This document shows positions 9,736 to 24,423 of a stretch of DNA of 64,000 bases, piece by piece. The notes under the pieces were generated by a model. The model was not told the DNA's origin, ran no database searches, and saw nothing but the letters and a program-made list of their open reading frames with translations. The position numbers and the translations under genes are program-made. Numbering within the stretch: position 1 is the stretch's first letter; every line of letters starts with the position of its first letter. The stretch comes from Actinosynnema sp. ALI-1.44 (GTDB lineage Bacteria; Actinomycetota; Actinomycetes; Mycobacteriales; Pseudonocardiaceae), in contig NZ_MTQO01000054.1 in NCBI RefSeq assembly GCF_001984155.1, positions 744,001-808,000 of the forward strand, read 5' to 3'.

Positions 9736-9984
9736 ATGGAACTGCCGACCGTTGAAGAGCTGGCCGGCCAGCTGGCAGCCGTCTCTGGCGCTGCCGAACT
9801 GGGTCCCGACGACGCGATCCAGCGCAACTCCGACATCGACTCGCTGGACCTGATGGAGTGGCTGTACGGGTTCCAGAACAAGTACCCGCACGTCGGGGCG
9901 GACGAGTCGTTGTTCAGCGACATCGACGACGCGACGACCATGCGTGACGTGCACGCCAAGCTCATCAGCCTGGCCAAAGCGTAG
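9736..9984 (+). CDS. Acyl carrier protein
   Basis: 82 aa from the ATG at 9736 behind GAGGAG. The motif DIDSLDLMEW carries the phosphopantetheine-accepting Ser36. Length and helical pattern fit a free-standing type II ACP. The KAS III gene starts seven bases after its stop. This is the first of two carrier proteins in the 9.7-24.4 kb set and the probable chain carrier for the KAS III/ketoreductase pair. A second, dissimilar carrier at 19103 sits next to the adenylation enzyme. Confidence 0.93.
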   Translation: MELPTVEELAGQLAAVSGAAELGPDDAIQRNSDIDSLDLMEWLYGFQNKYPHVGADESLFSDIDDATTMRDVHAKLISLAKA

Positions 9985-9991
9985 GCCCGTC

Positions 9992-10978
9992 GTGGACGGC
10001 TTCGACATCGCCGGGTGGGGCATGGCCGTACCCGAGCGCCGAGTCACCACCACCGAGCTCGCGGCCCGCTTCGACATCGATGAGGAATGGATCATCAGTC
10101 GCTGCGGGATCCACGAGCGCCGGGCGATCGACCCCGGCCAGTCGACCGCCTCGCTGGCGATCGACGCGGGCCGTGTGGCGCTGGAGCGGGCAGGGCTGAC
10201 CGGCAAGGACATCGCCCACCTCATCGTGGCGAGTGCGACACCGGAACAGCTCTCCCCGGCCACGTCCGCGTTCGTGCACCACGGCCTCGGCATCGCCGGG
10301 TCCGCGCACGACGTGAACGCGGAGTGCTCCGGTTTCATCTACGGCCTGGTCACGGGTGCGGCGTTGATGAAGGTGGATCCGAGACCGATCCTGCTGATCG
10401 GCTCGGACACCCACTCGACGCAGATCAACCCGGTCGACCGCGATCTGTCCATCCTGGTCGGCGACGGCGCGGGAGCCATCGTGCTGACGCCGACCGAGAC
10501 CGACTGGGTGCTGGCGTGGAACCTCGGCGCGGACGGTTCGCGCCAGGACAGCCTGCGCGTACAGGCCGGCGGCAGCCGGATGCCCACCTCCGCGACCACG
10601 TTCGCGGACGGCCTGCACTTCTCCGAGATCAAGGGAAACGAGATCTACCTCAACGCGGTCCGTTTCACCGTCCGTTCGGTGCGTGCCACGCTCGAACAGG
10701 CCGGGCTGACGGTCGACGACGTCGATCACTTCGTTCCCCACCAGGCGAACATCAGGATCATCAACTCGATCCTCGACCACACCGGGCTCAAGCCGGAGAA
10801 GCTGGTCACCAACCTGTGGAAGTACGGCAACACCGCGTCGGCGTCGATGCCCATCGCGATGAGCGAGGCGCTGGACGATGGCCGCTTCAAAGACGGTGAC
10901 CTGGTGCTGCTCGCGGGTTTCGGCGCCGGCATGACGTGGGGGTCGGCACTTCTGAAGTGGGGCGGTGTTTCGGCATGA
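9992..10978 (+). CDS. 3-oxoacyl-ACP synthase III (FabH-like KAS III)
   Basis: 328 aa from GTG 9992 (MDGFDIAGWG). All three FabH catalytic residues are present: Cys112 in NAECSGF, His near 250 in FVPHQANIRI, and Asn near 279 in KYGNTASAS. KAS III enzymes condense an acyl-CoA or acyl-carrier starter with malonyl-ACP, so this is the likely initiation enzyme of the adjacent pathway. The thiolase-fold region LVGDGAGAIVL is intact. The stop overlaps the ATG of the ketoreductase gene (ATGA). Starter specificity cannot be read from sequence. Confidence 0.93.
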   Translation: MDGFDIAGWGMAVPERRVTTTELAARFDIDEEWIISRCGIHERRAIDPGQSTASLAIDAGRVALERAGLTGKDIAHLIVASATPEQLSPATSAFVHHGLGIAGSAHDVNAECSGFIYGLVTGAALMKVDPRPILLIGSDTHSTQINPVDRDLSILVGDGAGAIVLTPTETDWVLAWNLGADGSRQDSLRVQAGGSRMPTSATTFADGLHFSEIKGNEIYLNAVRFTVRSVRATLEQAGLTVDDVDHFVPHQANIRIINSILDHTGLKPEKLVTNLWKYGNTASASMPIAMSEALDDGRFKDGDLVLLAGFGAGMTWGSALLKWGGVSA

Positions 10979-11736
10979 GCAGCCGGAAATCTTTCGTTGA
11001 CGTGGCACGCCCGGACTCGCCGGTCGCACTCGTGACCGGGGCGTCCGGCGGGCTGGGGCAGGCGTTGGCCATCGAACTCGACGCGTTGGGGTGCCGGGTC
11101 GCCGTGCACTACAACTCGTCGCGCGACCGGGCGCAGGCCGTGGCGGACAAGCTGGAGAACGACTCCTGCGTGGTGACCGGTGACGTCGCCTCGTGGGAGG
11201 CGGTCAACCAGATGTACAAGGAGGTCTCGGAGGCGCTGGGGCCGATCGACATCCTGGTCAACAACGGCGGTATCCGCAAGGACGCCCTGATGGCCATGCA
11301 GTCGCCCGACGACTGGCGCCAGGTGATCGAGACCAACCTGATCGGGACGTTCCACACCTCCCGCGTCGCGGTTGGACACATGCTGCGCAAGCGGTGGGGC
11401 CGGATCGTCAACGTCGTCTCACCGTCCGGCCTGATCGCGTCGGCCGGTCAGACGGCGTACTCGGCCTCCAAGGCCGGGGTCATCGGGTTCACCCGCACGC
11501 TGGCCGCCGAGTGCGGCCGCCGAGGTGTCACGGTGAACGCGCTGTCACCCGGCTTCATGGTGACGACCATGACCAAGGACCTGTCGGACTCGGTCATGGA
11601 CAACATCAGGGAGAAGTCGCCGATCCCGCGCTTCGGCACGCCGGAGGAGGTCGCCCGCAGCATGGCTCTGTTCCTGGAGTGCGATTTCACCACCGGACAG
11701 GTCATCAGCGTCGACGGCGGTGTCTCCATCACGTGA
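10975..11736 (+). CDS. 3-oxoacyl-ACP reductase (FabG-like SDR)
   Basis: 253 aa. It is a classical short-chain dehydrogenase with cofactor loop TGASGGLG near 22-29, a catalytic Ser (NVVSPSG), YSASK (Tyr and Lys) and the C-terminal TGQVISVDGG typical of FabG. The usual NNAG block reads NNGG. The 20-residue N-terminus before the beta strand is longer than in housekeeping FabG. It should reduce beta-ketoacyl-ACP with NADPH. It is translationally coupled to KAS III and is followed by a hairpin at 11745-11786. Confidence 0.92.
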   Translation: MSSRKSFVDVARPDSPVALVTGASGGLGQALAIELDALGCRVAVHYNSSRDRAQAVADKLENDSCVVTGDVASWEAVNQMYKEVSEALGPIDILVNNGGIRKDALMAMQSPDDWRQVIETNLIGTFHTSRVAVGHMLRKRWGRIVNVVSPSGLIASAGQTAYSASKAGVIGFTRTLAAECGRRGVTVNALSPGFMVTTMTKDLSDSVMDNIREKSPIPRFGTPEEVARSMALFLECDFTTGQVISVDGGVSIT

Positions 11737-12045: not shown

Positions 12046-15000
12046 TTACGCTGACCGCGGACGCAGGTCGAGGCTGGCGAGGGTCCAGTTCGCCTCCGCA
12101 CGCAGGGTTTCCGCTCGCCTTCGGTCCCCTGCGCGTCCTCGTGCCTCCATCGCTTGTGCCAGCGCCAGTTGTGTCAAGGCCGTCCACGGCCGGGCTTGGC
12201 GTTCGCCGAACCCGGTGAGCGCCGCGGTCAGGTGCTGCTCCGCGTCGTCCCAGTCTCCAACGATAACCGCCAACCGGCCAAGATGGAATGACGCCGATCC
12301 GGCGAAAGTGCGGTAGCCGATGCCGCAGTTGAGCTCGGCATAGGGTTCCAGCAGCTTGCGCAGCGCCTCCGCGGTGGCCGGATCGCCCAGTTCGTGAGCG
12401 CCAAGGGCAAGCAGGCCAACGACATGCGGCCATTCGTCGCCCGACGGCAACGGCTCGACCCCGGTGGCCAGCGCCCGTACCGTCAGGTGAGGAAGACCAC
12501 GTTCCCCGCCGATCAACGCGATCAGCGACTGCTCCGCGGCTTCGTTCGTCCCGGTGAACCAGCCGTCGTCGGCACGTCCCCGCAGCCAGCCCGCGACGAG
12601 CAGCTGCCGGGCGGCCAGAGTGCCCGGTACGGGCTGGATCCGGTGGTCGGTGTCGTCGGGGACCCGGTGCACCTGGCTGGTCATCGCGACCGCTTTGGCG
12701 AACTGGCCTTGAGTCACCGCGATCGCGACCGAACGGTCCAGCAGCAACGCGTGGCCGAGTTGTTCCCCGGCACGGTCAACCACGTCCACCAGTTCGGCCA
12801 GTGCCTGCGTGCCGTCGCCGGACAGTTCGGCGGCCATCGCACGGTGGTGCGCCGCGATCACCGCCTCGTAGGTGTCCTCAACAGCCTCTGCGACCGCGAG
12901 CATCTCCCCGGCCAGTTGCGCCCGCCGCCGCACGTTCGCCGGTCCTTCGAGCAGTTGCAGCTCACGGGACATCGCCGTGAGCGCGGGTTTCGTGCCGATC
13001 GGGACGGGACGGCCGAGGCGGGCGAGACGAGCGAGCAACCGGCCGACCGTGACGTCGTCGATCGCGCTCACCGCGCGCGGAGGCGTTGTGCCGACGAGCA
13101 TCTCGATCAACGCCGCGGCCTCGCTGCGCAGTCTGGGCTGGTCCTGCACGACGTCGGCCAGTCCGAGCGCGGCCTGTGCCGCCATCGTCAGCCGTCCGTT
13201 GTGCAACGCCTGGATCGCGCCGTCCAGCAGGGTCTGCTCGCATTCCCGCTGTCCGGCCGCGAGCTGCGCCAGCCCGAGGTTGGTCAACGCCTCGGCCCGC
13301 AGTTCGTGGTCCGCCGACGGGACGTGCCGCAACGCCTGCCGGTGCAAGTGAACGGCCTCATGGGGTGAACCGTCCTGGCTCGCCCGTGCCGCGGCGCGCC
13401 AGCCCCAACGGACCGCGCGCTGATCCCCGTGCGGGATCGCACCGGCGGCGCGGTGGTGCGCCATCGTCCGGCTGTACCGGCGCAGTTCGCCCGCGCGGCG
13501 GTGTTCGATCGCATCGGCGAGACGGGTGTGCAGCCAGCGTCGGCGCGCGGCGCTCGCCTGTTCGTAGATGGCCCGGCGGACGACGTCGTGCACGAACCGG
13601 TATTCGTACGTCGTGGGGGTTTCCGTGACGAGTTGGGCGTGCACGGCGGTGTCCAACGCTTCGAACGCCTCGTGCTCGGCCAGGTCCGCCGCCTCGGCGA
13701 CCAGGTCGAGCTCGAAGCCCGCACCCGCCGCGGCCGCGGTCCGCAGCAATTGCCTTGCGGTGTGGTCGATCGCGGCCATCCGGGCGTTGGCGTAGTCGGC
13801 CGCCCCGGACGGCAGCGACGGCTTGGTGCTGTTCGGGTCGCCGCTGTTCGGGTCGCTGCGGTACGGATCGCTGTGCCAGCGCAGCAGTTCCAGCAGCAGG
13901 AACGTGTTTCCCGCGGTGTCGGCGACCAGCTCGTGCGGTTTCGGGAGGTCCGGGGTGTCCGGCGCGACCCGGCGGATCAGCGCGCCCACGTCCGCCTCGT
14001 CCATCCCGGCCAGTGCGATCCTGCGCAGCCAGCCGTCCCGGTCGACGTCGTGGATCGCTGACGCGAAGTCATCGGACGCGGTTGGACGGTGTCCAGGTGT
14101 CGCCGCGGTGGCCGCGACCAGCAACGACGTTCCCTGGCACCGCCGCGCCAACCGGCGCAGCAGCACGAAGGTGTCGTCGTCGGCCATGTCGAGGTCGTCG
14201 AGCACGAGGTAAACCGGTTGTTCTGACGCTGTTTTGATCAGCAGGTCGGTCAACGCGAGCAGCAGGTCGGTGCGTGTGGACACCATTGGGTCCGCTATCG
14301 CGCTCAGTGTGGCCCTGCCCAGCGGCGGCAGCGCGTCCTGCGGTGTGGCCGCGACGAACCCGCCGGCCGCCTCGACGAAAGCCTGGCACGGCACGGAGGC
14401 CTTGTCGTCACAACGTCCGTACATCACCACGCCACCCGCGACGCTGATGCGTTTGGCCAACTCGGTGACCAGCCGGGTCTTGCCGACGCCTGGTTCGCCG
14501 GTGACGAGAACCATGTGGCTGGCGCCGTCCTCGGCCTGTGCCCACGCCGCCGATAATCGCGCGAGTTCCTGCCTGCGTCCCACGAATGGAGCAGAGCTCC
14601 GCGCTCTCGGGGCCCGGGTGCGTGCCGGAGTCATGACCGGGCTGCCGAGCAGTTCCGCGTATGCCGCCTGGGTTTCCGGTGCCGGGTCGATCCCGAGCTC
14701 CTCGGCCAGCATCCGGCGCAGTTCGTGGTAGCACCTCAACGCCTCGGCGCGGTTGCCCGCGGCGACGTGTGCCGTCATCCGGCAGCGGTGCGCGCTTTCC
14801 CTGAGCGGGGCGCGGCGGACCGCTTCGTCGGCGAACCTGAGAGCGTTGCGTTCGTCGTGCCGTGCCGACGCCGCCAGGCTCGCGGTTTCCAGTGCTGACA
14901 CGAGCAGTTCGGCGGTCCGTTCCCGGACACCGGTGACCCATTCACCCTCGTGGTCGGGCAGGAACGGCCTTTCCAGCGTGGCCACCGCGGCCGCGGCGAG

Positions 15001-15384
15001 GCGCTCGGCGTCGGCGAACTCACCCTTGCCGTAGGCCTCTCCCGCCTGTGTCACCTCGGTTTCGGCCAGTTCCAGGTCGACAGTCGCCCCGGCGGGGAGC
15101 TTGAGCAGGTACCGCCCGCCGTGCGCGATGATCGGCGGACTCGCCGCGATGTCGCCGCCCACAACGAATCCACGGACCCGGCTGACCACGCTGCGCAGCG
15201 CGGACGCCCACGTGTCGGGCAAACCTTCCGGCCACACGGTGTCGGCGAGCAGGTCGCGGCTCGTGCCACCGGACCGTTCCAGCGTCAGCCGTGCGAACGC
15301 CACTTGCGCCTGCGCGCTGGACAGGTGCCGAGGCGGGGCGTCATCGCGTTCGATCGTGATGAGACCCGTCAACCTGATGAGCAT
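12046..15384 (-). CDS. Giant BTAD/AAA transcriptional regulator (AfsR/SARP type)
   Basis: 1112 aa from the ATG at 15384 (MLIRLTGLIT); 41 upstream codons look like leader. Order: an OmpR-like winged helix (about 1-95), the bacterial transcriptional activation domain (about 100-245, with ESAHRCRMTAHVAAGNRAEA), then an AAA/NTPase domain with Walker A GEPGVGKT and Walker B YLVLDDLDMAD, and a long TPR-like helical C-terminus. Such proteins activate specialised-metabolite genes in an ATP-dependent way. It sits inside the 9.7-24.4 kb set, divergent from the KAS II gene, and is the obvious candidate pathway regulator (inference). An odd DP/S-rich linker, SDPYRSDPNSGDPNS, interrupts the NTPase-to-TPR region. 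No LuxR domain is present at the C-terminus. Confidence 0.9.
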   Translation of the reverse strand: MLIRLTGLITIERDDAPPRHLSSAQAQVAFARLTLERSGGTSRDLLADTVWPEGLPDTWASALRSVVSRVRGFVVGGDIAASPPIIAHGGRYLLKLPAGATVDLELAETEVTQAGEAYGKGEFADAERLAAAAVATLERPFLPDHEGEWVTGVRERTAELLVSALETASLAASARHDERNALRFADEAVRRAPLRESAHRCRMTAHVAAGNRAEALRCYHELRRMLAEELGIDPAPETQAAYAELLGSPVMTPARTRAPRARSSAPFVGRRQELARLSAAWAQAEDGASHMVLVTGEPGVGKTRLVTELAKRISVAGGVVMYGRCDDKASVPCQAFVEAAGGFVAATPQDALPPLGRATLSAIADPMVSTRTDLLLALTDLLIKTASEQPVYLVLDDLDMADDDTFVLLRRLARRCQGTSLLVAATAATPGHRPTASDDFASAIHDVDRDGWLRRIALAGMDEADVGALIRRVAPDTPDLPKPHELVADTAGNTFLLLELLRWHSDPYRSDPNSGDPNSTKPSLPSGAADYANARMAAIDHTARQLLRTAAAAGAGFELDLVAEAADLAEHEAFEALDTAVHAQLVTETPTTYEYRFVHDVVRRAIYEQASAARRRWLHTRLADAIEHRRAGELRRYSRTMAHHRAAGAIPHGDQRAVRWGWRAAARASQDGSPHEAVHLHRQALRHVPSADHELRAEALTNLGLAQLAAGQRECEQTLLDGAIQALHNGRLTMAAQAALGLADVVQDQPRLRSEAAALIEMLVGTTPPRAVSAIDDVTVGRLLARLARLGRPVPIGTKPALTAMSRELQLLEGPANVRRRAQLAGEMLAVAEAVEDTYEAVIAAHHRAMAAELSGDGTQALAELVDVVDRAGEQLGHALLLDRSVAIAVTQGQFAKAVAMTSQVHRVPDDTDHRIQPVPGTLAARQLLVAGWLRGRADDGWFTGTNEAAEQSLIALIGGERGLPHLTVRALATGVEPLPSGDEWPHVVGLLALGAHELGDPATAEALRKLLEPYAELNCGIGYRTFAGSASFHLGRLAVIVGDWDDAEQHLTAALTGFGERQARPWTALTQLALAQAMEARGRAGDRRRAETLRAEANWTLASLDLRPRSA

Positions 15385-15601
15385 TTCCGACCACCCCAGA
15401 AGGATCGACACAGTCGGGTTGGGCTGCGAACACGTCCCCTCAGACGCGTGTCCAAAGGATTGCCGAGCGATATGTGACCGTCTACCCCTACACCATGAAC
15501 TTCTCACGCCCGGTCACGTGACGTGGTCACCGGATTCCCTGTTGCGCCCTGCTTGCGGCGACCCACGTACAACTTGCCCTGCGAGCAGGAGGGAGCCCGA
15601 G
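15385..15601. promoter_or_regulatory. Divergent promoter region with GTCACGTGAC palindrome
   Basis: This gap separates the minus-strand BTAD regulator from the plus-strand KAS II operon and should hold both promoters. It contains the perfect palindrome GTCACGTGAC at 15513-15522 inside a larger symmetrical block ending GGTCACCGG at 15533. This is a plausible operator for the regulator or another factor. No promoter boxes could be assigned confidently. Confidence 0.5.
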
Positions 15602-16828
15602 ATGACGGCCAGCGTGGTGATCACCGGGATGGGCGTGGTCACGCCGGCGGGATGCCGGCTCGACGAGTTCTGGGCGGTGCTGCGCGCGGGCCGTTCGACG
15701 GCCGCCGAACTGACCGGGATGCGACTGGACGACCACAAGGTCCGGATCGGCTGTCGTGTCACGGGATTCGAGGACCTCGGCGTGCTCGGCGCCAAGGAGG
15801 CGCGGCGGCTGGACCCGTTCGCGCGCTACGGCGTCGCCGCGGCGTTGCAGGCGCACGCCGACGCGGGACTGCCGAGCCTGGACAAGGACCGGGCGGCGAT
15901 CGTGATCGGCAACGCCGTCGGCGGCAGGCGTACCAGCGACGACGAGACCCGCAACTTCCACACGGGCGGCCCGGCGAGGGTGAACCCGTTGATGCCGTTG
16001 ATCAACATGCCGAACGCCGCGGCCGCCGCGCTGAGCATGAAACTGGGGTGGCGCGGCCCGGCGTTGACCATCGCGTCCACATGCGCCAGTGGCGCGGACT
16101 CGATCGGCTACGCCCGGATGCTGCTGCAGACGCGCCAGGCGGACGTCGTGCTGGCAGGCGGCTGCGAGTCGATCATGACCGAGGTCACCTTGGCCGCGTT
16201 CGGCAACCTCAACGCCGTCACCACGAGCCGCAACGACACACCGGCGATCGCGTCCCGGCCGTTCGACAAGGACCGCGACGGGTTCGTCATGGGTGAGGGT
16301 GCGGGGTTCGTCGTGTTGGAACGCGCCGACGACGCCCGTGCCCGGGGAGCCCGGCTGTACGCTGAGATCGCGGGATACGCGGCGACCAGCGACGCGTTCC
16401 ACCTGTCGATGCCCGCATCGGACGGCGCGGGCGCGGTCGCCGCGATGACCAGGGCGATCGCCGACGCCCGGCTGGAACCGGGGAACATCGTGCACGTCAA
16501 CGCGCACGGAACGTCCACACCGCACAACGACCGCGCCGAAGCGGTCGCGCTGCACAAGGTTTTCGGGCCGGACGGCCCGCCGGTGACCTCGTCGAAGGGC
16601 GTCATCGGGCACCTGATCGGAGCCGCTGGCTCGGTCGAGCTGATCGCCACGGTGATGGCCATGCGCGAGTCCGTGGTGCCCCCAACCGCAAACCATGAGC
16701 ACCTCGAACCGGGAATGCGGATCGACGTCGTGCACGGCAGTCCTCGCAAGGTGGCGAGCGGCCCGGCGCTGTCGAACTCGTTCGGGTTCGGGGGCCACAA
16801 CGCCTGTCTGGTGGTGAAGCCGGTATGA
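15602..16828 (+). CDS. 3-oxoacyl-ACP synthase (KAS II / type II ketosynthase)
   Basis: 408 aa from ATG 15602 behind AGGAGG. Catalytic Cys lies in ASTCASGAD near residue 161. The two His lie in NAHGTSTPHND near 302 and GHLIGAAGS near 336. The GEGAGFVVLE and NSFGFGGHN blocks confirm an elongating FabF-like enzyme. No chain-length-factor partner is adjacent, so it probably works alone. It begins a tightly overlapping plus-strand operon that runs through at least 20422 with only small gaps. It would extend the acyl chain with malonyl-ACP. Confidence 0.93.
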   Translation: MTASVVITGMGVVTPAGCRLDEFWAVLRAGRSTAAELTGMRLDDHKVRIGCRVTGFEDLGVLGAKEARRLDPFARYGVAAALQAHADAGLPSLDKDRAAIVIGNAVGGRRTSDDETRNFHTGGPARVNPLMPLINMPNAAAAALSMKLGWRGPALTIASTCASGADSIGYARMLLQTRQADVVLAGGCESIMTEVTLAAFGNLNAVTTSRNDTPAIASRPFDKDRDGFVMGEGAGFVVLERADDARARGARLYAEIAGYAATSDAFHLSMPASDGAGAVAAMTRAIADARLEPGNIVHVNAHGTSTPHNDRAEAVALHKVFGPDGPPVTSSKGVIGHLIGAAGSVELIATVMAMRESVVPPTANHEHLEPGMRIDVVHGSPRKVASGPALSNSFGFGGHNACLVVKPV

Positions 16829-17634
16829 CCCCCACACTGTCGGCGCGCACGGTCCGCAAGGTGACCGCGGACGAGCTCGCGACCTACCGCGAAGTCGTCC
16901 GGAGTGGACTCGACGGCGGCGACGGCAAGGCGTCCCCGCTGCACGCGTTCGTGCTCGCCTCGCCCGTGATCGACGAGTCGGTCGGCATGATCGGCGCGGC
17001 CACGGCGGACGGGTCCCCGCTCGGCCGCGTGCACCTGTCGCAGGAGATCCACGTGCGGCGCGCGATCAGGGCGGACGAGCCGGTCACCGTGGCGCTCGAC
17101 GTCGTCGGCACCCGCAAGAGCCTCAAAGGCGTCCAGGTGGCGATGAAGGTGGCGCTGCTGGGCGAGGACGGCGAGCAGTTCGCGGAGCTGATCACCGGCG
17201 CGATGCTCGTCGGCGCGGTCACCCCGGACACGTTCGGCCAGCTCCCGCCGCACCCGGGCAAGGGCAGCACCGCCGAGCCGACCGTTGTCACACGGGCGAT
17301 CGCGCGCGGGACCGTGACCAAGTACGCCCACGCGTCCGGCGATCTCAACCCGATTCACTTGGACGACACCGCGGCTGTCCAAGCGGGTTTCGAGAACGGC
17401 GTGATCGCACATGGGATGAGCGTGCTCGCGGTCGTGACCGAGGAGGTCATCGACCGCTACGCGGGCGGCGACGCCGACCGGGTCAAGAGCATCGGCGCAC
17501 GGTTCTCCTCGGCCGTCTCACCCGACACCCCGCTGGAGATCGTGTTGCAGGAAGACCAGAACTTCGTGCGGTTCTCGTGCAAGACGCCGACCGGTCCCGC
17601 TCTCAAAAGCGGCTGGGTCGAGTTGGGGGAGTGA
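16825..17634 (+). CDS. MaoC-like dehydratase with two hotdog domains
   Basis: 269 aa, overlapping the ketosynthase gene by ATGA. The N-terminal half (about 1-145) matches the FAS1/HadA-like hotdog region. The C-terminal half carries the hydratase-2 signature YAHASGDLNPIHLD near 171-184, including the catalytic Asp and His, then FENGVIAHGM. It would dehydrate 3-hydroxyacyl-ACP to the 2-enoyl form. With the KAS and ketoreductase genes and no enoyl reductase nearby, chains could stay unsaturated. The stop overlaps the start of the next gene by one base. Confidence 0.88.
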   Translation: MTPTLSARTVRKVTADELATYREVVRSGLDGGDGKASPLHAFVLASPVIDESVGMIGAATADGSPLGRVHLSQEIHVRRAIRADEPVTVALDVVGTRKSLKGVQVAMKVALLGEDGEQFAELITGAMLVGAVTPDTFGQLPPHPGKGSTAEPTVVTRAIARGTVTKYAHASGDLNPIHLDDTAAVQAGFENGVIAHGMSVLAVVTEEVIDRYAGGDADRVKSIGARFSSAVSPDTPLEIVLQEDQNFVRFSCKTPTGPALKSGWVELGE

Positions 17635-19106
17635 TGAGTACCTTCCGACAGCGGTTCCTCGACCAGGTCAGCCGCAGGCCCGGTGCGCCCGCGCTGGTCT
17701 GGCACGGCGAGGTCACCACGTACGGCGACCTCTACGAACTCGCCGACAAGGCACGCACCCGGCTGGAGTGGTCGAACCTCCAGCCGGGCGACCCGATCGG
17801 CCTGCTGGTCAAGAAGTCCCCGCAGGCGGTCGCGCTCGTGCTCGGTGCCTTGCTGAGCGGACGCCGCTTCTTGCTGCCGTCGCCCGCCCTCGCCAACTCG
17901 GCGCTGACCAGTCTGTTCGCGCAGGCAAGCTGCCAAGCCGTCTTCGCGCCGGAAGGCGAGCCGGAGTTCACGCCGGACCCGTCGATCGCACCGGAGCCCG
18001 TCGAAGCGTCCGATCTGGACGATGTGCGGTTCATGCTGACCACGTCCGGCTCGACCGGCCTGCCGAAGATCGTGCCGTTGCCGCAGCGGGGCATCGACCG
18101 GTTCGTCGAGTGGGCCGGTGCCGAGTTCGACATCCGGCCGGGCCGGACCGTGCTGAACTACGCGCCGCTGAACTTCGACCTGTGCCTGCTGGATGTCTGG
18201 ACCACGCTGGCGCACGGCGGCCAGGTCGTGCTCGTCGATCCCGACTACGCGGCCAACGGCCGTCATCTGCTGGACGCGCTGGTGCGGCACGAGGTCAACG
18301 TCATCCAGGCTGTGCCGATGTTCTTCGGCCTGTTGCTGGACGTCGTGCAGCCCGCGGTGGACCGGTTGGAGCACGTGGACCGCGTGATGTTCACCGGTGA
18401 CGCCATCCCGGACCGCACGCTCGCCGAGCTGCCGAAACTGTTCCCGAACGCCGCACTGCACAACATCTACGGCTGCACGGAGACCAACGACAGCTTCGTC
18501 CACCACCTCGGCAGCGGCGACACAGCCGCGACCCCGCCGGTGTCGATCGGCAGTCCGCTGCCCGGTGTGCACTCGCTGGTCATGACCGCCGAAGGGGCCG
18601 TCCTCGAAGGACCGGGAACAGGCGAACTCTACGTGAGCACACCGTTCCAGGCGGCCGGGTACCTCGACCGCGCCCGGCACACGGACAAGTTCGTGCCGCA
18701 CCCGACGGGAGCCGACGAGCGGCCGTGGTTCCGCTCGGGCGACCTGGTCAGGCGCGCCGAGGACGGCCGAGTCTTCCTGATCGGCCGCAGCGACTTCCAG
18801 GTCAAGGTGCGGGGTGTCGCGATCAACACCGCCGAGGTCGAGCACGTCCTGCTCGAACACCCCGCGGTGCTGGAGGCGGCGGTCGTCGCCGTGCCCGACC
18901 CGATCGCGGGCCGCAGGCTGGTGTCGGCCGTGCACCGGGCCGACGGCAGCAAGCTCAACAGCCTCGTACTGCGCCAGCACTGCGCACGACGACTTCCCCA
19001 AGCAGCGATCCCGTCGACCATGCACATCGTCGACACGCCGTTGCCGAAGACACCGACCGGCAAGGTCGACCGAAACGCATTCGGGAGCAAAGGAAGGACG
19101 CCATGA
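17634..19106 (+). CDS. Free-standing adenylation enzyme (amino-acid or acid AMP ligase)
   Basis: 490 aa from ATG 17634. ANL-superfamily cores are clear: TTSGSTGLPKIVPL near 137-150, YGCTETND near 279, FRSGDLV near 366, IGRSDFQVKVRG near 383, and PKTPTGKVDRNAF with the catalytic Lys near the C-terminus. The substrate-pocket segment NYAPLNFDLCLLDVW resembles the FDLS-type pocket of stand-alone prolyl- and D-alanyl-AMP ligases rather than fatty-acid ligases. The carrier protein gene overlaps its stop, so the enzyme probably loads that carrier. With the acyl-CoA-dehydrogenase-like gene at 21846 it recalls the proline-to-pyrrole trio. The actual substrate is uncertain. Confidence 0.88.
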   Translation: MSTFRQRFLDQVSRRPGAPALVWHGEVTTYGDLYELADKARTRLEWSNLQPGDPIGLLVKKSPQAVALVLGALLSGRRFLLPSPALANSALTSLFAQASCQAVFAPEGEPEFTPDPSIAPEPVEASDLDDVRFMLTTSGSTGLPKIVPLPQRGIDRFVEWAGAEFDIRPGRTVLNYAPLNFDLCLLDVWTTLAHGGQVVLVDPDYAANGRHLLDALVRHEVNVIQAVPMFFGLLLDVVQPAVDRLEHVDRVMFTGDAIPDRTLAELPKLFPNAALHNIYGCTETNDSFVHHLGSGDTAATPPVSIGSPLPGVHSLVMTAEGAVLEGPGTGELYVSTPFQAAGYLDRARHTDKFVPHPTGADERPWFRSGDLVRRAEDGRVFLIGRSDFQVKVRGVAINTAEVEHVLLEHPAVLEAAVVAVPDPIAGRRLVSAVHRADGSKLNSLVLRQHCARRLPQAAIPSTMHIVDTPLPKTPTGKVDRNAFGSKGRTP

Positions 19107-19363
19107 GCAACGCGGACGCCATCAAGAAGTTCGTCATCGACGAGTTCCTGCCCGACGTGGCACCTGAGGACCTCGCGGTCGAGTACGACCTGCTGGCCGA
19201 CGGCGTGATCGACAGCCTCGGCCTGCTCAAGCTGATCGCGTGGGTGGAGGACCACTTCGCGCTGTCGGTGCACGACACCGACCTCGACCCGAACAACTTC
19301 CGCAGCGTGCAGGCGATCGACGAGTTCATCGACGCCGCGCGCAGCCAGGTCGCGGGGAGCTGA
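19103..19363 (+). CDS. Peptidyl/acyl carrier protein
   Basis: 86 aa, starting ATG 19103 inside the previous stop (ATGA). Ser38 in DGVIDSLGLLKL is the phosphopantetheine site. It is acidic and helical, like the D-alanyl/prolyl carrier proteins that partner stand-alone adenylation enzymes. It differs clearly from the ACP at 9736, which suggests two separate carrier lines: one for the adenylated unit and one for chain extension. The TrpD homologue starts seven bases later. Confidence 0.92.
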   Translation: MSNADAIKKFVIDEFLPDVAPEDLAVEYDLLADGVIDSLGLLKLIAWVEDHFALSVHDTDLDPNNFRSVQAIDEFIDAARSQVAGS

Positions 19364-19369
19364 ACTCCG

Positions 19370-20422
19370 GTGCATCCCGCGATCATCTCCCTTCTCGACC
19401 ACCGCACCGGCATCGACCGGGACACCTGGCGGTCGCTGTGGGACCAGCTGGGCGCGGGCGACCTCGACCGAGGTGAGTCCGTCGCCCTGCTGGCCTCGCT
19501 GGCCACCCGGCTGCCCGACCACGACTCGCTGCGCAACCTGCTGGCGTCGCTCAACGAGCGGCGCGAACCGGTCACCGCGAACTGGCCGGGAACGGTCAAC
19601 ATCGTCGGAACGGGCGGCGGCCCGAGGACGTTCAACATCTCCACCGCGTCGGCGTTCGTCGCGGCCGCGTTGGGTGTGAAGGTCGTCAAGACCGGTTCGC
19701 GCGCCTACACCAGCAGCGTCGGCTCGATCGACCTGCTCGAGCGGCTCGGCGTCGGCCTGACCCGTTCGTACCGGCACACCGAGGACACACTGGACAAGTA
19801 CGGCATCGCGTTCGCCGGGCCGTTCGTGTACCCGACCGAGCTGTTGCGGATGGCACGGCTGATCATGCCGATGAGCCTCAAGCCGTTCGGCCGGTTCGTC
19901 AACGCCCTCGGCCCGTTCCTGGCGGCGTTGCCGGTCACCGCGCAGGTCACGGGAGTGTCGGTGCACGCGCCGCAGCCGGAACTGCGCAGGCTGGCCGCGG
20001 GCATCAAGGACCGCAAGGTCTGGCTGTGCATGAACGACTCCGGCGCGGACGAGCTGCTCGGCTTCGCCGACAACGTGATCTACACCAACGACGAAACCAG
20101 CATGATCAGGCTGTGGGCCGGCCGGTTCACCTCGGACAAGGGCACGTTCGAGGACCTGGCTCCCGCACGGGACCTCGACCAGGTCGCCGACCACTTCCTC
20201 GAGGTGGTCTCCGGTGCGGCAGGCGAAGTCGTCACCGAGACGATCAGCCTCAACGCCGCGGCGCTCGCGGTCGCGACGGGCCACATCGAGGACTGGACGG
20301 TTGCTTTCGAGGCCGCGCGGGACGCGGTCGTCACCGGTGCCGCACGCTCCCTTGTGGACGCGATGCGGACGCCGCACGAGCGCAAGCTCACCCTCGTACG
20401 CAAGGCGGTATCCAATGGCTGA
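19370..20422 (+). CDS. Divergent anthranilate phosphoribosyltransferase homologue (TrpD-like)
   Basis: 350 aa from GTG 19370 behind GGGGAG. Family blocks are plain: NIVGTGGGPRTFNISTASAF near 77-96, GVKVVKTGSRAYTSSVGS near 102-119, and DLLERLGV. They depart from canonical TrpD where the PRPP and anthranilate sites lie: GTGGD is GTGGG, KHGNR is KTGSR, SSxGSAD is SSVGSID, and the LGPLLNP block reads NALGPFLAA. TrpD transfers the ribosyl phosphate of PRPP to the amino group of anthranilate. The changes suggest a relaxed or different amine acceptor (inference). It overlaps the TrpA homologue by eight bases and lies in the adenylation/carrier operon, so it is not the housekeeping copy. Confidence 0.85.
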   Translation: MHPAIISLLDHRTGIDRDTWRSLWDQLGAGDLDRGESVALLASLATRLPDHDSLRNLLASLNERREPVTANWPGTVNIVGTGGGPRTFNISTASAFVAAALGVKVVKTGSRAYTSSVGSIDLLERLGVGLTRSYRHTEDTLDKYGIAFAGPFVYPTELLRMARLIMPMSLKPFGRFVNALGPFLAALPVTAQVTGVSVHAPQPELRRLAAGIKDRKVWLCMNDSGADELLGFADNVIYTNDETSMIRLWAGRFTSDKGTFEDLAPARDLDQVADHFLEVVSGAAGEVVTETISLNAAALAVATGHIEDWTVAFEAARDAVVTGAARSLVDAMRTPHERKLTLVRKAVSNG

Positions 20423-21386
20423 GTTCTTCGACCAGACAGCCGACGGCGAGCCGGGACTGGCGTTGTTCCTCAACGCGGGCGACCCGCCGCTGGACGTACT
20501 GGCGGACCTGGTCTTCATGCTCGACGACGCCGGAGTGGACTGTCTGGAGCTGGCCGTGCCGTTCCCCGGCTCGGTCACCGACGGCCCGGTGATCCGGCGG
20601 TCGCACGAGCGGGCGCTGGCGCTCGGCGTCGGCCTGGACGAAGTACTCACCTTCATCTCACACGTCCGGCCGAAGCTGCACCGGCTGCGGATCGCGTTGC
20701 TCGCCGACTGGAGCTACTCGATCAAGCGCAGGCCGATGGCCGAGGTCGTCGGCGACATCGCCGAAGCGGGCGCGGACGGCCTGCTGCTGCACGCCGTCCC
20801 GCCGCGGGTGCGACCGGGCTACTACCAGGCAACCAGGGACGCGGGCCTGCCGGTCGTCGCCACGTGCTACCACAAGGTCTCCACCCAGCAGGTGATGACC
20901 GAGGCGGTCGACAACGCCTCGGCCTACCTGTACCTGGTCGCCCAGTACGGCCGAAGCGGCACCGCTCCGGCCGAAGGGTACGCCGACCTGGCGGGAACGA
21001 TCGCGGAGTTGCGGTTGGACATGAGCGGTCACGACCGGGGGGTCGCCAGCGGTCTCGACGGCCCAGCTTCCCGCTGGGCGCACGGGAGAAAGACCCAAGT
21101 ACACCCGGTACGAGGGTCTTTCTCCCGCACACCAAGCGAAAACCTGCATCCGCCGAATACCGCCGACGATCCCCCGGTCGCAACCGCCGGTGTACCGATC
21201 GCCGTCGGGTTCGGAGTCAAGACGCGGGCAGACGTGTCGACCGTGCACGCCCTCGGGGCGGACGCGGTGATCGTCGGCTCCGCGGGAGTGGCGCGGGTCG
21301 AAGAAGCCCTCGCGTACAACCGGGACGTCGTCAAGGAGTTCGCCGACTTCGTCCGGTCGGTCCACCCCGCCCACACCCTCGCCTAG
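20415..21386 (+). CDS. Tryptophan synthase alpha-chain homologue (TrpA-like) with an in-frame palindromic insert
   Basis: 323 aa from ATG 20415. TrpA normally cleaves indole-3-glycerol phosphate to indole and glyceraldehyde phosphate. The catalytic pair is kept: Glu45 in CLELAVPF and Asp56 in SVTDGPVI. The barrel end IAVGFGVKTRADV and the phosphate loop VIVGSAGV are also present. Residues about 204-258 do not belong to the family; they are encoded by a 165-base imperfect palindrome, and removing them leaves 268 aa, the usual TrpA length. The insert falls between TIAELR and VPIAVGFG, before the strand that precedes the phosphate loop. No trpB is adjacent, so a free-standing indole-releasing lyase like maize BX1 is one possibility. 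Whether the insert is tolerated is unknown. Confidence 0.85.
   Translation: MAEFFDQTADGEPGLALFLNAGDPPLDVLADLVFMLDDAGVDCLELAVPFPGSVTDGPVIRRSHERALALGVGLDEVLTFISHVRPKLHRLRIALLADWSYSIKRRPMAEVVGDIAEAGADGLLLHAVPPRVRPGYYQATRDAGLPVVATCYHKVSTQQVMTEAVDNASAYLYLVAQYGRSGTAPAEGYADLAGTIAELRLDMSGHDRGVASGLDGPASRWAHGRKTQVHPVRGSFSRTPSENLHPPNTADDPPVATAGVPIAVGFGVKTRADVSTVHALGADAVIVGSAGVARVEEALAYNRDVVKEFADFVRSVHPAHTLA
21024..21188. repeat. 165-base imperfect palindromic element inserted in the trpA-like gene
   Basis: The innermost arms are perfect: CGGGAGAAAGACCC (21083-21096) and GGGTCTTTCTCCCG (21114-21127) around a 17-base loop. The similarity extends outward with mismatches to AGCGGTCACGACCGGGGG at 21024 and CCCCCGGTCGCAACCGCC ending at 21188, so each arm is about 75 bases. 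The length is a multiple of three and the frame stays open, adding about 55 residues to the protein. The arms differ by scattered substitutions, as expected for an old multicopy element. It resembles in behaviour the Rickettsia palindromic elements found inside genes. Confidence 0.85.
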
Positions 21387-21402
21387 CACAAGGGAGTTGA
21401 CC

Positions 21403-21777
21403 ATGATCATTCGCAGCATCGACGACGTGAAGACCGTCGAATGGGGCAACGGGCTCTCACGCCGGTTCCTGCTCGAGGCCGACGGGATGGGCTACACGCT
21501 GACCGACACCCTCGTCCGCGCGGGCACGAAGTCGCACCTGGAGTACCGCAACCACCTCGAAGCCTGCTACTGCATCGCGGGTTCCGGCGAAGTGATCGAC
21601 ACCGAGGGCAACTCCCACCCGATTACGCCCGGTGTGATGTACGCGCTGGACAAGCACGACCCGCACTGGCTGGTCGCCAGCCCGCACGAGGACCTGCGCC
21701 TGGTCTGCATGTTCACCCCGGCGCTGCGGGGCGAAGAAGCCCACAACCTCGACACCGACGAGTTCTCCGAGTACTGA
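21403..21777 (+). CDS. Ectoine-synthase-like cupin (EctC homologue)
   Basis: 124 aa from ATG 21403, six bases after AGGGAG. The sequence follows EctC nearly throughout: MIIRSIDDVK, GMGYTLTDT, EYRNHLEACYCI, the HPITPGVMYALDKHDPHWL block, and LRLVCMFTPAL. Residues matching EctC iron/substrate positions are kept (Tyr48, Glu53, Tyr80, His88). EctC removes water from N-acetyl-diaminobutyrate to close a ring. No ectA, ectB or ectD is nearby and the gene sits among trp homologues. It probably therefore performs a related cyclodehydration on another substrate (inference). It begins 16 bases after the TrpA-like stop. Confidence 0.88.
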   Translation: MIIRSIDDVKTVEWGNGLSRRFLLEADGMGYTLTDTLVRAGTKSHLEYRNHLEACYCIAGSGEVIDTEGNSHPITPGVMYALDKHDPHWLVASPHEDLRLVCMFTPALRGEEAHNLDTDEFSEY

Positions 21778-21780
21778 GAG

Positions 21781-21834
21781 CCTCGTGAGTGGTCAGTCCG
21801 GCTTCGGTTCTGACCGGACTGACCACTCACGAGG
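21781..21834. terminator. 21-bp perfect hairpin inside the operon
   Basis: CCTCGTGAGTGGTCAGTCCGG (21781-21801; 21 bases, here given as its ends CCTCGTGAG...CAGTCCGG) is exactly mirrored at 21814-21834. The loop is 12 bases. It starts three bases after the EctC-like stop, and its right arm runs straight into the GAGGAGGAGG of the next gene. It may end the upstream transcript, reduce read-through, or protect mRNA. Confidence 0.75.
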
Positions 21835-21845
21835 AGGAGGCAGTG

Positions 21846-22988
21846 ATGATCGACTGGACCGAGGACCAGGTCGAGCTGCGAGAGGGACTGGCCGCGTGGC
21901 ACGAGGCCTTCTCCGCCGACCACGTCGAGAACGACGACGCCGCCGCGTTCTCGTGGCAGAAGTGGAAACTGGTCGGCGAGTCGGGCATCCTCAGCCTGCC
22001 GTTCGACGAGCGGTGGGGCGGGCTCGGGCTGGACCTGCCGACCACTATGTACGTCATGGAGGGGCTCGGCGAGGGGTGCCGTGACGGCGGGCTGATCTTC
22101 TCCATCACCACGACCATCTGCAGCGTCGGCGTTCCCGTCGAGAAGTTCGGTTCGCCCGCGCTGAAGGACAAGTACCTGCCGGGGATCATCTCGGGCGACA
22201 GGATCGGCGCGCACGCGATCACCGAACCCGCGGGCGGGTCGGACGCGCTGCGGATGCGCACCAGGGCCGAACGCGACGGCGACGAGTTCGTCCTCAACGG
22301 CAGCAAGACGTTCGTGAGTAACGGACCGATCGCCGACGTGTTCATGGTGTACGCCAAGACCCGCCCGGAGGGCGGGCCGCTGGGCGTCACGGCGTTCCTC
22401 GTCGAGAGGGACACACCCGGCTTCGAGGTCGGCAACCCGATCAAGAAGATGGGCCTGCGCACGTCACCGCTGTCCGAACTGTACTTCGACGACTGCCGGG
22501 TCCCCGCCACCCAGGTCTGCGGCCGGGTCGGCGGCGGGTTCATGGTGCTCGACCACGTGATGAAGCGCGAGATCCTGTACTCGTTCGTCACCAACGTCGG
22601 CGAGATGCAGCACAGGCTGGATCGTTGTGTGGAATACGCGCGTGAACGCCAGCAGTTCGGCAAGCCGATAGCGAGCTACCAGTCGATCGCCAACAAGATC
22701 GTCGACATGAAGATCAAGCTGGAGACCTCGCGCAAATGGCTCTACGACACGGCGCAGAAGCTCGTCCGAGGTGAGAACGTGACCACCGACATGGCCATCG
22801 CGAAGCTGCTGACCAGTCAGGCCAATGTGGACACGAGTCTCGCCGCGGTGCAGATCTTCGGCGGCAACGGCTACATGGCCGAGTACGGCCTGGAGAAGGA
22901 CGTGCGCAACGCCGTCGCGGGCACGATCTACTCGGGCACCAACGAGATCCAGTACAACCGCATCGCATCCATGCTGGGGCTGACATGA
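21846..22988 (+). CDS. Acyl-CoA-dehydrogenase-like flavoenzyme
   Basis: 380 aa from ATG 21846. Acyl-CoA dehydrogenase signatures include GAHAITEPAGGSDALRM, NGSKTFVSNG, ERQQFGKPI and QIFGGNGYMAEY. The motif that holds the catalytic Glu in medium-chain enzymes reads YSGTNEIQ, without that Glu. A Glu in KREILYSF near residue 242 sits where isovaleryl-CoA and prolyl-carrier dehydrogenases place theirs. Together with the adenylation enzyme and carrier protein upstream, this matches the gene trio that oxidises carrier-bound proline to pyrrole. It could instead desaturate an acyl chain. The TrpF-like gene overlaps its stop. Confidence 0.88.
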   Translation: MIDWTEDQVELREGLAAWHEAFSADHVENDDAAAFSWQKWKLVGESGILSLPFDERWGGLGLDLPTTMYVMEGLGEGCRDGGLIFSITTTICSVGVPVEKFGSPALKDKYLPGIISGDRIGAHAITEPAGGSDALRMRTRAERDGDEFVLNGSKTFVSNGPIADVFMVYAKTRPEGGPLGVTAFLVERDTPGFEVGNPIKKMGLRTSPLSELYFDDCRVPATQVCGRVGGGFMVLDHVMKREILYSFVTNVGEMQHRLDRCVEYARERQQFGKPIASYQSIANKIVDMKIKLETSRKWLYDTAQKLVRGENVTTDMAIAKLLTSQANVDTSLAAVQIFGGNGYMAEYGLEKDVRNAVAGTIYSGTNEIQYNRIASMLGLT

Positions 22989-23707
22989 GATCCGGGTTCA
23001 AGCGGCACAAGGACGATCGCAGACTGCTGAAGGTGTGCGGCGCCACGACGAAGGCGGACGTCGAGTTGCTCGCGGGCGCGGGCGCCGACCTGGTCGGGCT
23101 GTGGCACGGGGTCGCCGACGGGCCCGCGGAGGTCTCCGTCGACGAAGTCACCACATTAGCCGAGGCGGCCAGGGCCACTGGTCGCCTGGAACCGACGCTC
23201 GTCACCTTCCTGTCCGATGTGGAGACGTTGCGGCAGATCATCGACCGGACCGGCATCTCGTGGATCCAGCTGCACGCCTACCAGATGCCGGGGATGATCG
23301 CCGCGCTGCGCCAGTCCGTCTCGACGGACCTGACGATCGTGAAGGTGCTGCACCTGAAGAACGGCAAATGCCTGGAACGCCCGCTGATCAAGGCGTACGA
23401 GCGCGCGGGCGTCGACGTGTTCCTGCTCGACGTGGTGACCGCGAGCGGTCAGATCGGCAGCACAGGTCAACGGTTGCAGGCCAGTGACGTCGCCGACGTC
23501 GTGCCGACGTTCAGCAAGCCGTTCCTGCTCGCGGGCGGGATCTCGGCGCACAACAGCGCGGACTACGAGACCGTCGTGCAACACCCGCAGTTCCACGGGA
23601 TCGACGTGGACACGGGCGCCCGGAACCACACGGGCGGCTTCGAGCGCAAGAACATCACCGACATCAGCCGCGGTTGGCGCACCGCCAGGTACGTGGAGGT
23701 CGCATGA
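22985..23707 (+). CDS. Divergent phosphoribosylanthranilate isomerase homologue (TrpF-like)
   Basis: 240 aa, ATG 22985 overlapping the previous stop. TrpF landmarks are visible: LKVCGATTKADVELL near 16-30 with the catalytic Cys, WIQLHAYQ near 97, VFLLDVVTASGQIGSTGQ with the catalytic Asp, LLAGGISAHN, and IDVDTGARN...GGFERKNI for the phosphate site. TrpF performs the Amadori rearrangement of phosphoribosylanthranilate. Differences such as GLWHGV in place of the usual FxF block and the TGAR motif for SSGVE suggest a changed substrate. The TrpC-like gene overlaps by four bases. Confidence 0.85.
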   Translation: MRSGFKRHKDDRRLLKVCGATTKADVELLAGAGADLVGLWHGVADGPAEVSVDEVTTLAEAARATGRLEPTLVTFLSDVETLRQIIDRTGISWIQLHAYQMPGMIAALRQSVSTDLTIVKVLHLKNGKCLERPLIKAYERAGVDVFLLDVVTASGQIGSTGQRLQASDVADVVPTFSKPFLLAGGISAHNSADYETVVQHPQFHGIDVDTGARNHTGGFERKNITDISRGWRTARYVEVA

Positions 23708-24423
23708 GGTTCACAGACGCGTTGCTCGGCGCCGACCGTCCGGTGATCATGGAGGTCAAGCGGCGCGACCCGCACGGCGACGACCTGTTCGGCGATCGGA
23801 CGATCCCGGAGATCGTGGCCGAGTACGAGGCCGCGGGCGCGCCCTGCATCTCCGTGGTCACCGGGCGGTGGTTCGGCGGCACGGACTCGATGCTCAGCGA
23901 GGTCGCGTCGCTCACCGACCGCCCGGTGCTGCAGAAGGACTTCATCACCCGGCGCGACCAACTGCTGAAGGCGCGGGACCTCGGCGCGTCCGCGGTCTTG
24001 TTGACAGCGGGCCTGTTGCCGCGCTCCAGCATGCCGTCGCTGATCGAGGGCAGCCTGGAACTGGGTCTGACGCCGTTCGTCGAAGTGACCGGCGAGGCGG
24101 AGGTCGAGTCGGCGTTCGGGTCGGTCGCGGAAGGCGGCCCAACTGCGGAGCACTGCGTTGTTGCCGTCAACAACAAGGACATCAAGAATCGGGAGCGTGG
24201 CACGGGAGACCTCGGTCGCAGTGCCCGGTTGCTGCCCGCGCTGGCCGCGACCGGGACCCGCTGCCCGGTCAGCGCGAGCGGGATCACCAAGCCCCAGGAC
24301 GCCGACCGGCTGCTCGCCGAGGGCTACCGCGGCCTGCTGATCGGGACCGGGCTGCTGCGCACCACCAGCCTGACCGGCTGGCTGACCGAGCTGGACGACC
24401 TACGGAACATGCGCGTGCCGTGA
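23704..24423 (+). CDS. Divergent indole-3-glycerol-phosphate synthase homologue (TrpC-like)
   Basis: 239 aa, ATG 23704. TrpC closes the indole ring with loss of CO2 and water. Conserved here are PVIMEVKRRDP near 14-24, VLQKDFITRRDQL with the general-acid Lys near 79, FVEVTGEAE with Glu, AVNNKDI with Asn, and SASGI. The second Lys-bearing SPSKG loop is DPHGDD here, and the Glu of SESG is Ala. The fold and part of the active site are thus kept while two catalytic-site elements are lost. That is compatible with another amine or with reduced activity. It ends the operon before a hairpin at 24450-24477. Confidence 0.85.
   Translation: MRFTDALLGADRPVIMEVKRRDPHGDDLFGDRTIPEIVAEYEAAGAPCISVVTGRWFGGTDSMLSEVASLTDRPVLQKDFITRRDQLLKARDLGASAVLLTAGLLPRSSMPSLIEGSLELGLTPFVEVTGEAEVESAFGSVAEGGPTAEHCVVAVNNKDIKNRERGTGDLGRSARLLPALAATGTRCPVSASGITKPQDADRLLAEGYRGLLIGTGLLRTTSLTGWLTELDDLRNMRVP

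Follow-up and report, generated by a model that had tools for sequence, protein, structure and literature searches.

A probable pyrrolopyrrole cassette of tryptophan-type enzymes in Actinosynnema sp. ALI-1.44, with a revised origin proposed for its ring

The closest described system to the locus considered here is the kstB/kstC gene set for the quinocycline kosinostatin. Table 5 of PMC7918784 assigns to the kstB genes the loading of nicotinic acid and its conversion to a pyrrole, and to the kstC genes the combination of this pyrrole with phosphoribosyl pyrophosphate (PRPP) into a pyrrolopyrrole. Other points of comparison are the pyrrolyl-carrier pathway represented by PigA, RedW and PltE, ectoine synthase (EctC) and the canonical tryptophan operon. 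We compared with these an eight-gene cassette on the plus strand (17634-24423) of a 64,000-nucleotide stretch from Actinosynnema sp. ALI-1.44 (contig NZ_MTQO01000054.1, positions 744,001 to 808,000), referred to in full as the window. The cassette encodes an adenylation enzyme (Aad), an acyl carrier protein (ACP), a divergent TrpD, a TrpA, an EctC-like cupin, an acyl-CoA-dehydrogenase-type oxidase (ACAD), a TrpF and a TrpC homologue. A sequence-only reading had described the divergent TrpD, TrpA, TrpF and TrpC homologues together with the cupin and dehydrogenase, following an adenylation enzyme and carrier protein, and its genes, order and coordinates stand. It was likewise correct that trpB, trpE and trpG are missing, as none of the three was found in the operon.

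Relation to kosinostatin and to the canonical tryptophan genes

Among the loci compared (our labels, prefixed L), L088 belongs to Micromonospora okii TP-A0468, the kosinostatin producer. All eight enzymes are encoded there in the same order and strand, with 43-72% identity to those of the window, and the adenylation codes are near-identical (DLLQMTIDSK in the window vs DLLQVTLDSK in L088). Because the eight-gene set sits in this producer, whose kstB/kstC genes are published as pyrrolopyrrole makers, the gene combination has already been described, and the earlier statement that no such pathway was known is wrong. The two loci differ in their surroundings. Whereas L088 has a downstream ketosynthase gene 36% like that of the window, the window has FabF, MaoC, FabH, FabG and ACP genes, a Baeyer-Villiger monooxygenase (BVMO) and a flavin adenine dinucleotide (FAD)-linked oxidase, with a BioF-like gene and a second FabF just to the left. 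No aromatic KSalpha/KSbeta pair was found beside the cassette, the window holding one FabF-like ketosynthase and one FabH, and the ~36% ketosynthase matches of L088 and its kin are without counterpart in the window. The product moiety is very probably the same as in kosinostatin. We assign a probability of about 0.65 to the fuller reading, that the cassette is the pyrrolopyrrole (bicyclic amidine) set of kstB/kstC, operating via a glutamine route and joined here to a different product. The pathway would then be of a kind already known, set in genetic surroundings that are new for it, and a revised origin is proposed for its ring.

A TrpF profile scan of the named genome collection returned 61 loci, with titles that include Streptomyces, Kitasatospora, Kibdelosporangium, Actinocrispum, Actinophytocola, Lentzea, Nocardiopsis, Micromonospora and other actinomycetes. 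Together with L019, L030 and L031 these make 64 distinct loci; L020-L029 and L032 coincide with members of the 61-locus set and so entered the total once, L033 and L034 were excluded, and only matches above 55 bits were accepted. All eight genes are present in 56/64 loci, and in 55 of these 56 they lie on one strand in the order Aad-ACP-TrpD-TrpA-cupin-ACAD-TrpF-TrpC, L094 being rearranged. Order was judged by match midpoints; open reading frame starts, which are over-long and overlapping, gave 29/56. Chance association of the genes was rejected, the order being kept in 55/64 loci. In a TrpF search of 150 genomes, matches (E<=1e-10) were found in 16, our own included, two of which (genomes G096 and G148) reached 25% identity only. 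When 396 genomes were sampled evenly across the phylum, the sole strong match was our own genome (386.6 bits), with weak matches at a second place in that genome (90 bits) and in G096 (88 bits); the cassette is therefore rare. The two excluded loci, from two genomes of one genus, have a TrpF homologue (43-44%) near a transglutaminase-like match and, of the other seven cassette genes, just a 35% AMP-ligase match in L034. L036, on a contig titled Rhodococcus rhodnii NRRL B-16535, has a Kibdelosporangium-type cluster at 90% identity and is probably mislabelled; G003, the genome that matches it, is assigned to the same genus as the window.

The cassette is set apart from the cell's own tryptophan genes. 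In the 11.7 Mb genome, whose nearest named relatives are Kibdelosporangium species, TrpC was matched at three places, by the cassette copy (132 bits) and by a canonical pair scoring 267 and 258 bits. Two canonical TrpA (276 and 239 bits) and two TrpD of canonical type by score (309.5 and 251.4 bits) were also present, with further matches of 38 bits to TrpA on contig 48 and 151 bits to TrpD on contig 34. The contig-44 TrpD is of canonical type by eye too, and a run on contig 39 was read by eye as trpE-G-D-C-B-A. When 41 genomes were searched with PF00218 (40 matched), canonical TrpC scored 223-270 bits and divergent TrpC 131-151 bits, two further matches (99 and 90 bits) being partial. A tree was built from TrpC rows with coverage above 0.8 (62 divergent, 31 canonical), and in it a single branch with support of 100/100 split the two sets. 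Primary tryptophan synthesis was rejected on the grounds that canonical sets lie elsewhere in the genome and that anthranilate-side residues are lost. Thus the search for normal trp genes and the phylogeny against housekeeping copies (run for TrpC), both suggested by the sequence-only reading, support its view of a second, divergent subpathway. The cassette resembles the canonical operon in the reactions of TrpD, TrpF, TrpC and TrpA in principle and in their catalytic residues, but differs in having no E, G or B, in its separate TrpC clade, in its replaced anthranilate-side residues and in a short TrpC, whose N-terminus is missing since the PF00218 match begins at profile position 35.

Active-site residues, the proposed route and its alternatives

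Residues were counted after rows with coverage of half or less had been dropped. TrpC E51, K53, K110 and E159 are kept in 62/62 rows, so both active-site lysines are present and the supposed loss of the second Lys loop was mistaken. TrpD K106, S91, D223 and E224 are kept in 61/61, TrpA E49 and D60 in 62/62, and TrpF Cys7 and Asp126 in 64/65 and 65/65, respectively. In contrast, positions that we take to serve the anthranilate side are lost. In divergent TrpC, E210 is Ala in 61/62 copies, which confirms the SESG to SASG change read earlier, and R182 is Lys in 59/62 and Arg in none, whereas canonical TrpC keep both R182 and E210 in 31/31. In TrpD, H107, N109 and R164 are replaced in 61/61, in agreement with the KHGN to KTGS change first noticed; D83 is a gap in 61/61, so that the apparent change from GTGGD to GTGGG reflects the loss of this single Asp by deletion. 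Taken together, the kept catalytic residues and lost anthranilate-side residues fit a substrate whose carboxyl is placed otherwise than in anthranilate.

The remaining four genes bear on what that substrate might be. The family form of the adenylation code is DLLQxTxDSK, with D235, Q278, T301, D330, S331 and K517 in 62/62 rows (61 from the family and one from contig 39). Judged by sequence, this code appears unlike the aryl-acid type, and its alpha-amine anchor appears to be retained. For the aryl-acid enzymes DhbE and MxcE, nicotinic-acid use is reported, with the code PLPAQGVVNK (PMC8400222). The prolyl ligase PltF is among the nearest solved structures to the adenylation enzyme by sequence and fold, although not the nearest, and the pantetheine Ser of the ACP is kept in 59/59 family rows. 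The cupin resembles ectoine synthase in fold family, in its metal triad and in most substrate contacts: the iron ligands, W21, R25, T40, Y52 and E57 are kept in 61/61, and of six listed EctC contacts to N-gamma-acetyl-diaminobutyrate (N-gamma-ADABA) only the carboxylate-binding Asn38 is altered (T in 60/61, C in 1/61). It differs from EctC in this substitution and in that no ect genes were seen in the operon; a stronger EctC homologue of the same genome lies on contig 45 (187 bits). Halomonas EctC is described in PMC5924519 as converting L-glutamine to the cyclic amidine 5-amino-3,4-dihydro-2H-pyrrole-2-carboxylate (ADPC), while PMC6344544 calls the role of orphan EctC proteins not yet clear. 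The oxidase, with a catalytic acid that is E in 58/64 and D in 6/64, is nearest to prolyl-carrier dehydrogenases yet scores below their NCBIfam cut-offs (Table 1). The cassette is thus like the PigA/RedW/PltE pathway in its stand-alone adenylation enzyme, carrier protein and acyl-CoA-dehydrogenase-like oxidase, but unlike it in these scores and in the added cupin and Trp enzymes. The evidence from cupin, adenylation code and oxidase suggests a sequence from glutamine through ADPC to 5-aminopyrrole-2-carboxyl-ACP, and we somewhat favour glutamine/ADPC as the origin of the ring.

From the observed gene content, order, conservation and residue states we infer each of the following chemical steps. 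The EctC-like cupin would cyclise glutamine to ADPC, free or carrier-bound, by joining the alpha-amine to the side-chain amide; the adenylation enzyme would load ADPC onto the ACP; and aromatisation by the PigA/RedW-like oxidase would give 5-aminopyrrole-2-carboxyl-S-ACP, which is an enamine-like counterpart of anthranilate. TrpD would then couple PRPP to the amine, TrpF would yield the keto form, TrpC would close the second pyrrole ring at the neighbouring C-H carbon with no decarboxylation, and TrpA would release glyceraldehyde 3-phosphate to leave pyrrolo[2,3-b]pyrrole-carboxyl-S-ACP. In the window this product would probably be used by the FabF/MaoC/FabG/FabH set and the BioF-like oxoamine synthase, not by an aromatic polyketide synthase; for elongation by the FabF set itself, we consider the odds even.

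Several points weigh against this glutamine route. The ring precursors of kosinostatin are given as nicotinic acid and ribose (PMC7918784, PMC5321127, PMC8400222), and the reaction of EctC with glutamine is described as inefficient and reversible, with an equilibrium favouring glutamine (PMC5924519). Eight of the 64 loci lack one to five of the genes, the remainder being collinear: L043 and L050 start at contig ends, L038 and L084 miss five genes each, L067 is without the cupin, L077 is without TrpA, and L073 and L095 are without ACP, TrpD, cupin and TrpC. Loss on the anthranilate side is less clean in TrpF than in TrpD and TrpC, the Arg36 column still being R in 8/65 rows. Furthermore, the residue numbering and roles used for TrpC, TrpD, TrpF and TrpA are our assumption, as are the numbering by which the adenylation code was mapped and the role of D235, presumably the alpha-amine anchor. 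Lastly, an insertion in the TrpA homologue may impair the window's copy. Here a palindromic repeat (fold z -7.8) stands in place of 5 bp of the relative L019, in columns without residues in the other 26 rows of the TrpA alignment; seven further copies of more than 100 bp at 70-86%, plus shorter pieces, occur in the genome. AlphaFold2 predicts the barrel of this homologue with high confidence and residues 210-255 as a disordered segment that links a helix to the strand after it, on what we take to be the face opposite the active site.

The proposal of the cited literature would give the same pyrrolopyrrole from nicotinate, which would be loaded, ring-opened and deformylated to a pyrrole before the Trp-like enzymes act. 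We consider this unlikely: the Asp that we assume to hold an alpha-amine is kept in the adenylation code in 62/62 rows, we know of no family among the eight shared enzymes for nicotinate opening or deformylation, and glutamine needs no loss of carbon. The published route also has a gap: its deformylase candidate KstB7 is reported to have no gene in the cluster of a second producer (PMC7918784). Within the text that was accessible, the open PMC literature searched neither derived the ring from glutamine nor described this FabF-type cluster.

The sequence-only reading had left the end product between free indole and a new heterocycle made from another amine and PRPP, and the latter part is the more likely. 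If anthranilate or a related compound were turned into free or substituted indole, to serve an indole product, this would account for the presence of all four enzymes from TrpD to TrpA with catalytic residues kept. It is very improbable, however, because TrpD and TrpC have lost, in all or nearly all loci, the residues that we take to bind anthranilate, a loss that is less clean in TrpF; moreover, the operon is without TrpE/G, and the invariable presence of the cupin, adenylation enzyme, ACP and oxidase would be left unexplained. Another related carrier-bound beta-enamine, for example a six-ring or an acyclic beta-aminoacyl-ACP, could instead lead to a monocyclic pyrrole or azaindole. Although a beta-enamino acyl thioester would also suit the chemistry of TrpD, TrpF and TrpC, and the ACP is weakly similar to the cispentacin ACP (45.4 bits, cut-off 80), we find this option doubtful, as the near-identity of the adenylation codes between the kosinostatin locus and others points to a single substrate, and kosinostatin is described as holding a bicyclic pyrrolopyrrole.

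Features of the window and neighbouring genes

Family scores in Table 1 were obtained from Pfam and NCBIfam profile searches.

Table 1. Features of the window, by position
Feature	Position	Strand	Basis
FAD-linked oxidase (FAD_binding_4 + Cytokin-bind)	6475..7965	-	also in L038, L048, L051
Baeyer-Villiger/FMO-type flavin monooxygenase	7993..9537	-	also in L038, L048, L051
Second carrier protein	9736..9984	+	by eye and context, without NCBIfam match; in L038, L048, L051
FabH-like ketosynthase III	9992..10978	+	NF006829 321.6 bits, above cut-off 249; also in L048
FabG-like ketoreductase	10975..11736	+	adjoins cassette in L048
BTAD/AAA (SARP-type) regulator, start uncertain	12046..15507	-	PF03704, PF13191; in 28/30 class-I loci
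FabF-like ketosynthase	15596..16828	+	NF005589 454 bits, above cut-off 387
MaoC-type dehydratase, end overlaps adenylation gene start	16825..17634	+	PF01575; in 30/30 class-I (window-class) loci
Stand-alone adenylation enzyme (AMP-binding), code DLLQMTIDSK	17634..19106	+	PF00501/PF13193; code from alignment
Acyl/peptidyl carrier protein with pantetheine Ser	19103..19363	+	PF00550 21.3 bits, barely above cut-off 20.8
TrpD-like phosphoribosyltransferase (KTGS; GTGG with Asp deleted)	19370..20422	+	TIGR01245 145.6 bits, below cut-off 199
TrpA-like lyase, catalytic Glu and Asp kept, in-frame repeat insertion	20415..21386	+	TIGR00262 118.7, above cut-off 102
Palindromic repeat inside TrpA-like gene, in frame, net +165 bp	21022..21191		alignment, L019 comparison, fold z
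EctC-like cupin	21403..21777	+	ectoine synthase NF009806 143 bits, above cut-off 128
Acyl-CoA-dehydrogenase-type oxidase, related to prolyl-PCP dehydrogenases PigA/RedW	21846..22988	+	NF053553 PigA 370.7 (cut-off 500), NF045652 RedW 364.5 (cut-off 650), both below cut-off
TrpF-like isomerase	22985..23707	+	PF00697 47.3, above cut-off; Cys and Asp kept
TrpC-like cyclase	23704..24423	+	PF00218 131.9, above cut-off; residues; tree

Several gene ends overlap in the plus-strand run from the FabF-like ketosynthase through the TrpC-like gene. That the ACP, FabH, FabG, BVMO and FAD-oxidase genes further left belong with the cassette to one cluster is supported by their counterparts adjoining it in L048 (all five) and in L051 (ACP, BVMO and FAD oxidase). 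The BioF-like oxoamine synthase is located outside the window, 3.2-4.4 kb to the left of its first position, is 80% identical to a cassette-adjacent one in L026 and is followed by the second FabF-like gene. A tblastn search of the window with its FabF-like protein matched only that protein's own gene, revealing no further ketosynthase of the family. A prodigiosin ketosynthase of the PigJ type was rejected, the PigJ score being just 78.8 bits against 454 bits for the FabF-like family. Downstream genes for NmrA, hemerythrin, DUF1772 and a pyridoxal phosphate-type (PLP) decarboxylase were excluded from the cluster, as they adjoin the cassette in L019-L024 but not in L026-L028.

Genetic contexts and implications

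By partner genes, 30/64 loci are of the window type (class I), with a ketosynthase 62-96% identical to that of the window, MaoC in 30/30, the regulator in 28/30 and a BioF-like gene in 25/30. A further 6/64, the kosinostatin locus included, have only a ~36% similar ketosynthase, 5/64 have TrpB2, and 23/64 are without a class. In each of the TrpB2 loci (L061, L067, L069, L075 and L030) a transglutaminase-like protein and a UbiD-like decarboxylase are encoded as well; L076, L077, L079, L080 and L081 have the latter two without TrpB2. Transglutaminase-like, UbiD and TrpB2 genes fit release, decarboxylation and serine coupling of a pyrrolopyrrole-type ring, and the five loci with all three might make a new amino acid resembling tryptophan. 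Where TrpA is missing, in L077, the glycerol phosphate side chain might stay. In L073 and L095, the 20 kb covered yielded homologues of only four cassette genes (adenylation enzyme, TrpA, ACAD and TrpF), besides a transglutaminase-like match; the other four were not found there.

A second cluster in our own genome (contig 39, 125000-160000; L123/L124) encodes homologues of the cassette's Aad, ACP, cupin and ACAD at 43-57% identity, together with the adenylation code DLLQVTLDSK, a transglutaminase-like match, the trpE-G-D-C-B-A run, a TrpB2-like gene and a P450. Its TrpD, TrpA and TrpC match those of the window at just 26-33% (canonical), and no TrpF match appeared; the front half can therefore occur without the annulation half. 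A predicted pyrrolopyrrole metabolite is mentioned for Streptomyces 3211-3 in PMC6923854.

The divergent TrpC homologues form one clade, consistent with recruitment as a module. We regard as evenly balanced the proposition that the four Trp enzymes were recruited together to annulate a second pyrrole on carrier-bound 5-aminopyrrole-2-carboxylate, made from glutamine by the EctC homologue and the prolyl-type oxidase, and that this module serves at least three contexts (aromatic polyketide, FabF/BioF-like and TrpB2/UbiD). The fixed eight-gene set, with its alpha-amino-acid-type code and EctC homologue, points to a route that is shorter than the one from nicotinic acid and is open to single-enzyme assays. 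If true, this would overturn the nicotinic-acid origin of the ring and provide a function for part of the orphan EctC proteins, and the TrpB2/UbiD context would give a new tryptophan-like amino acid. Product families beyond the quinocyclines probably bear the same ring.

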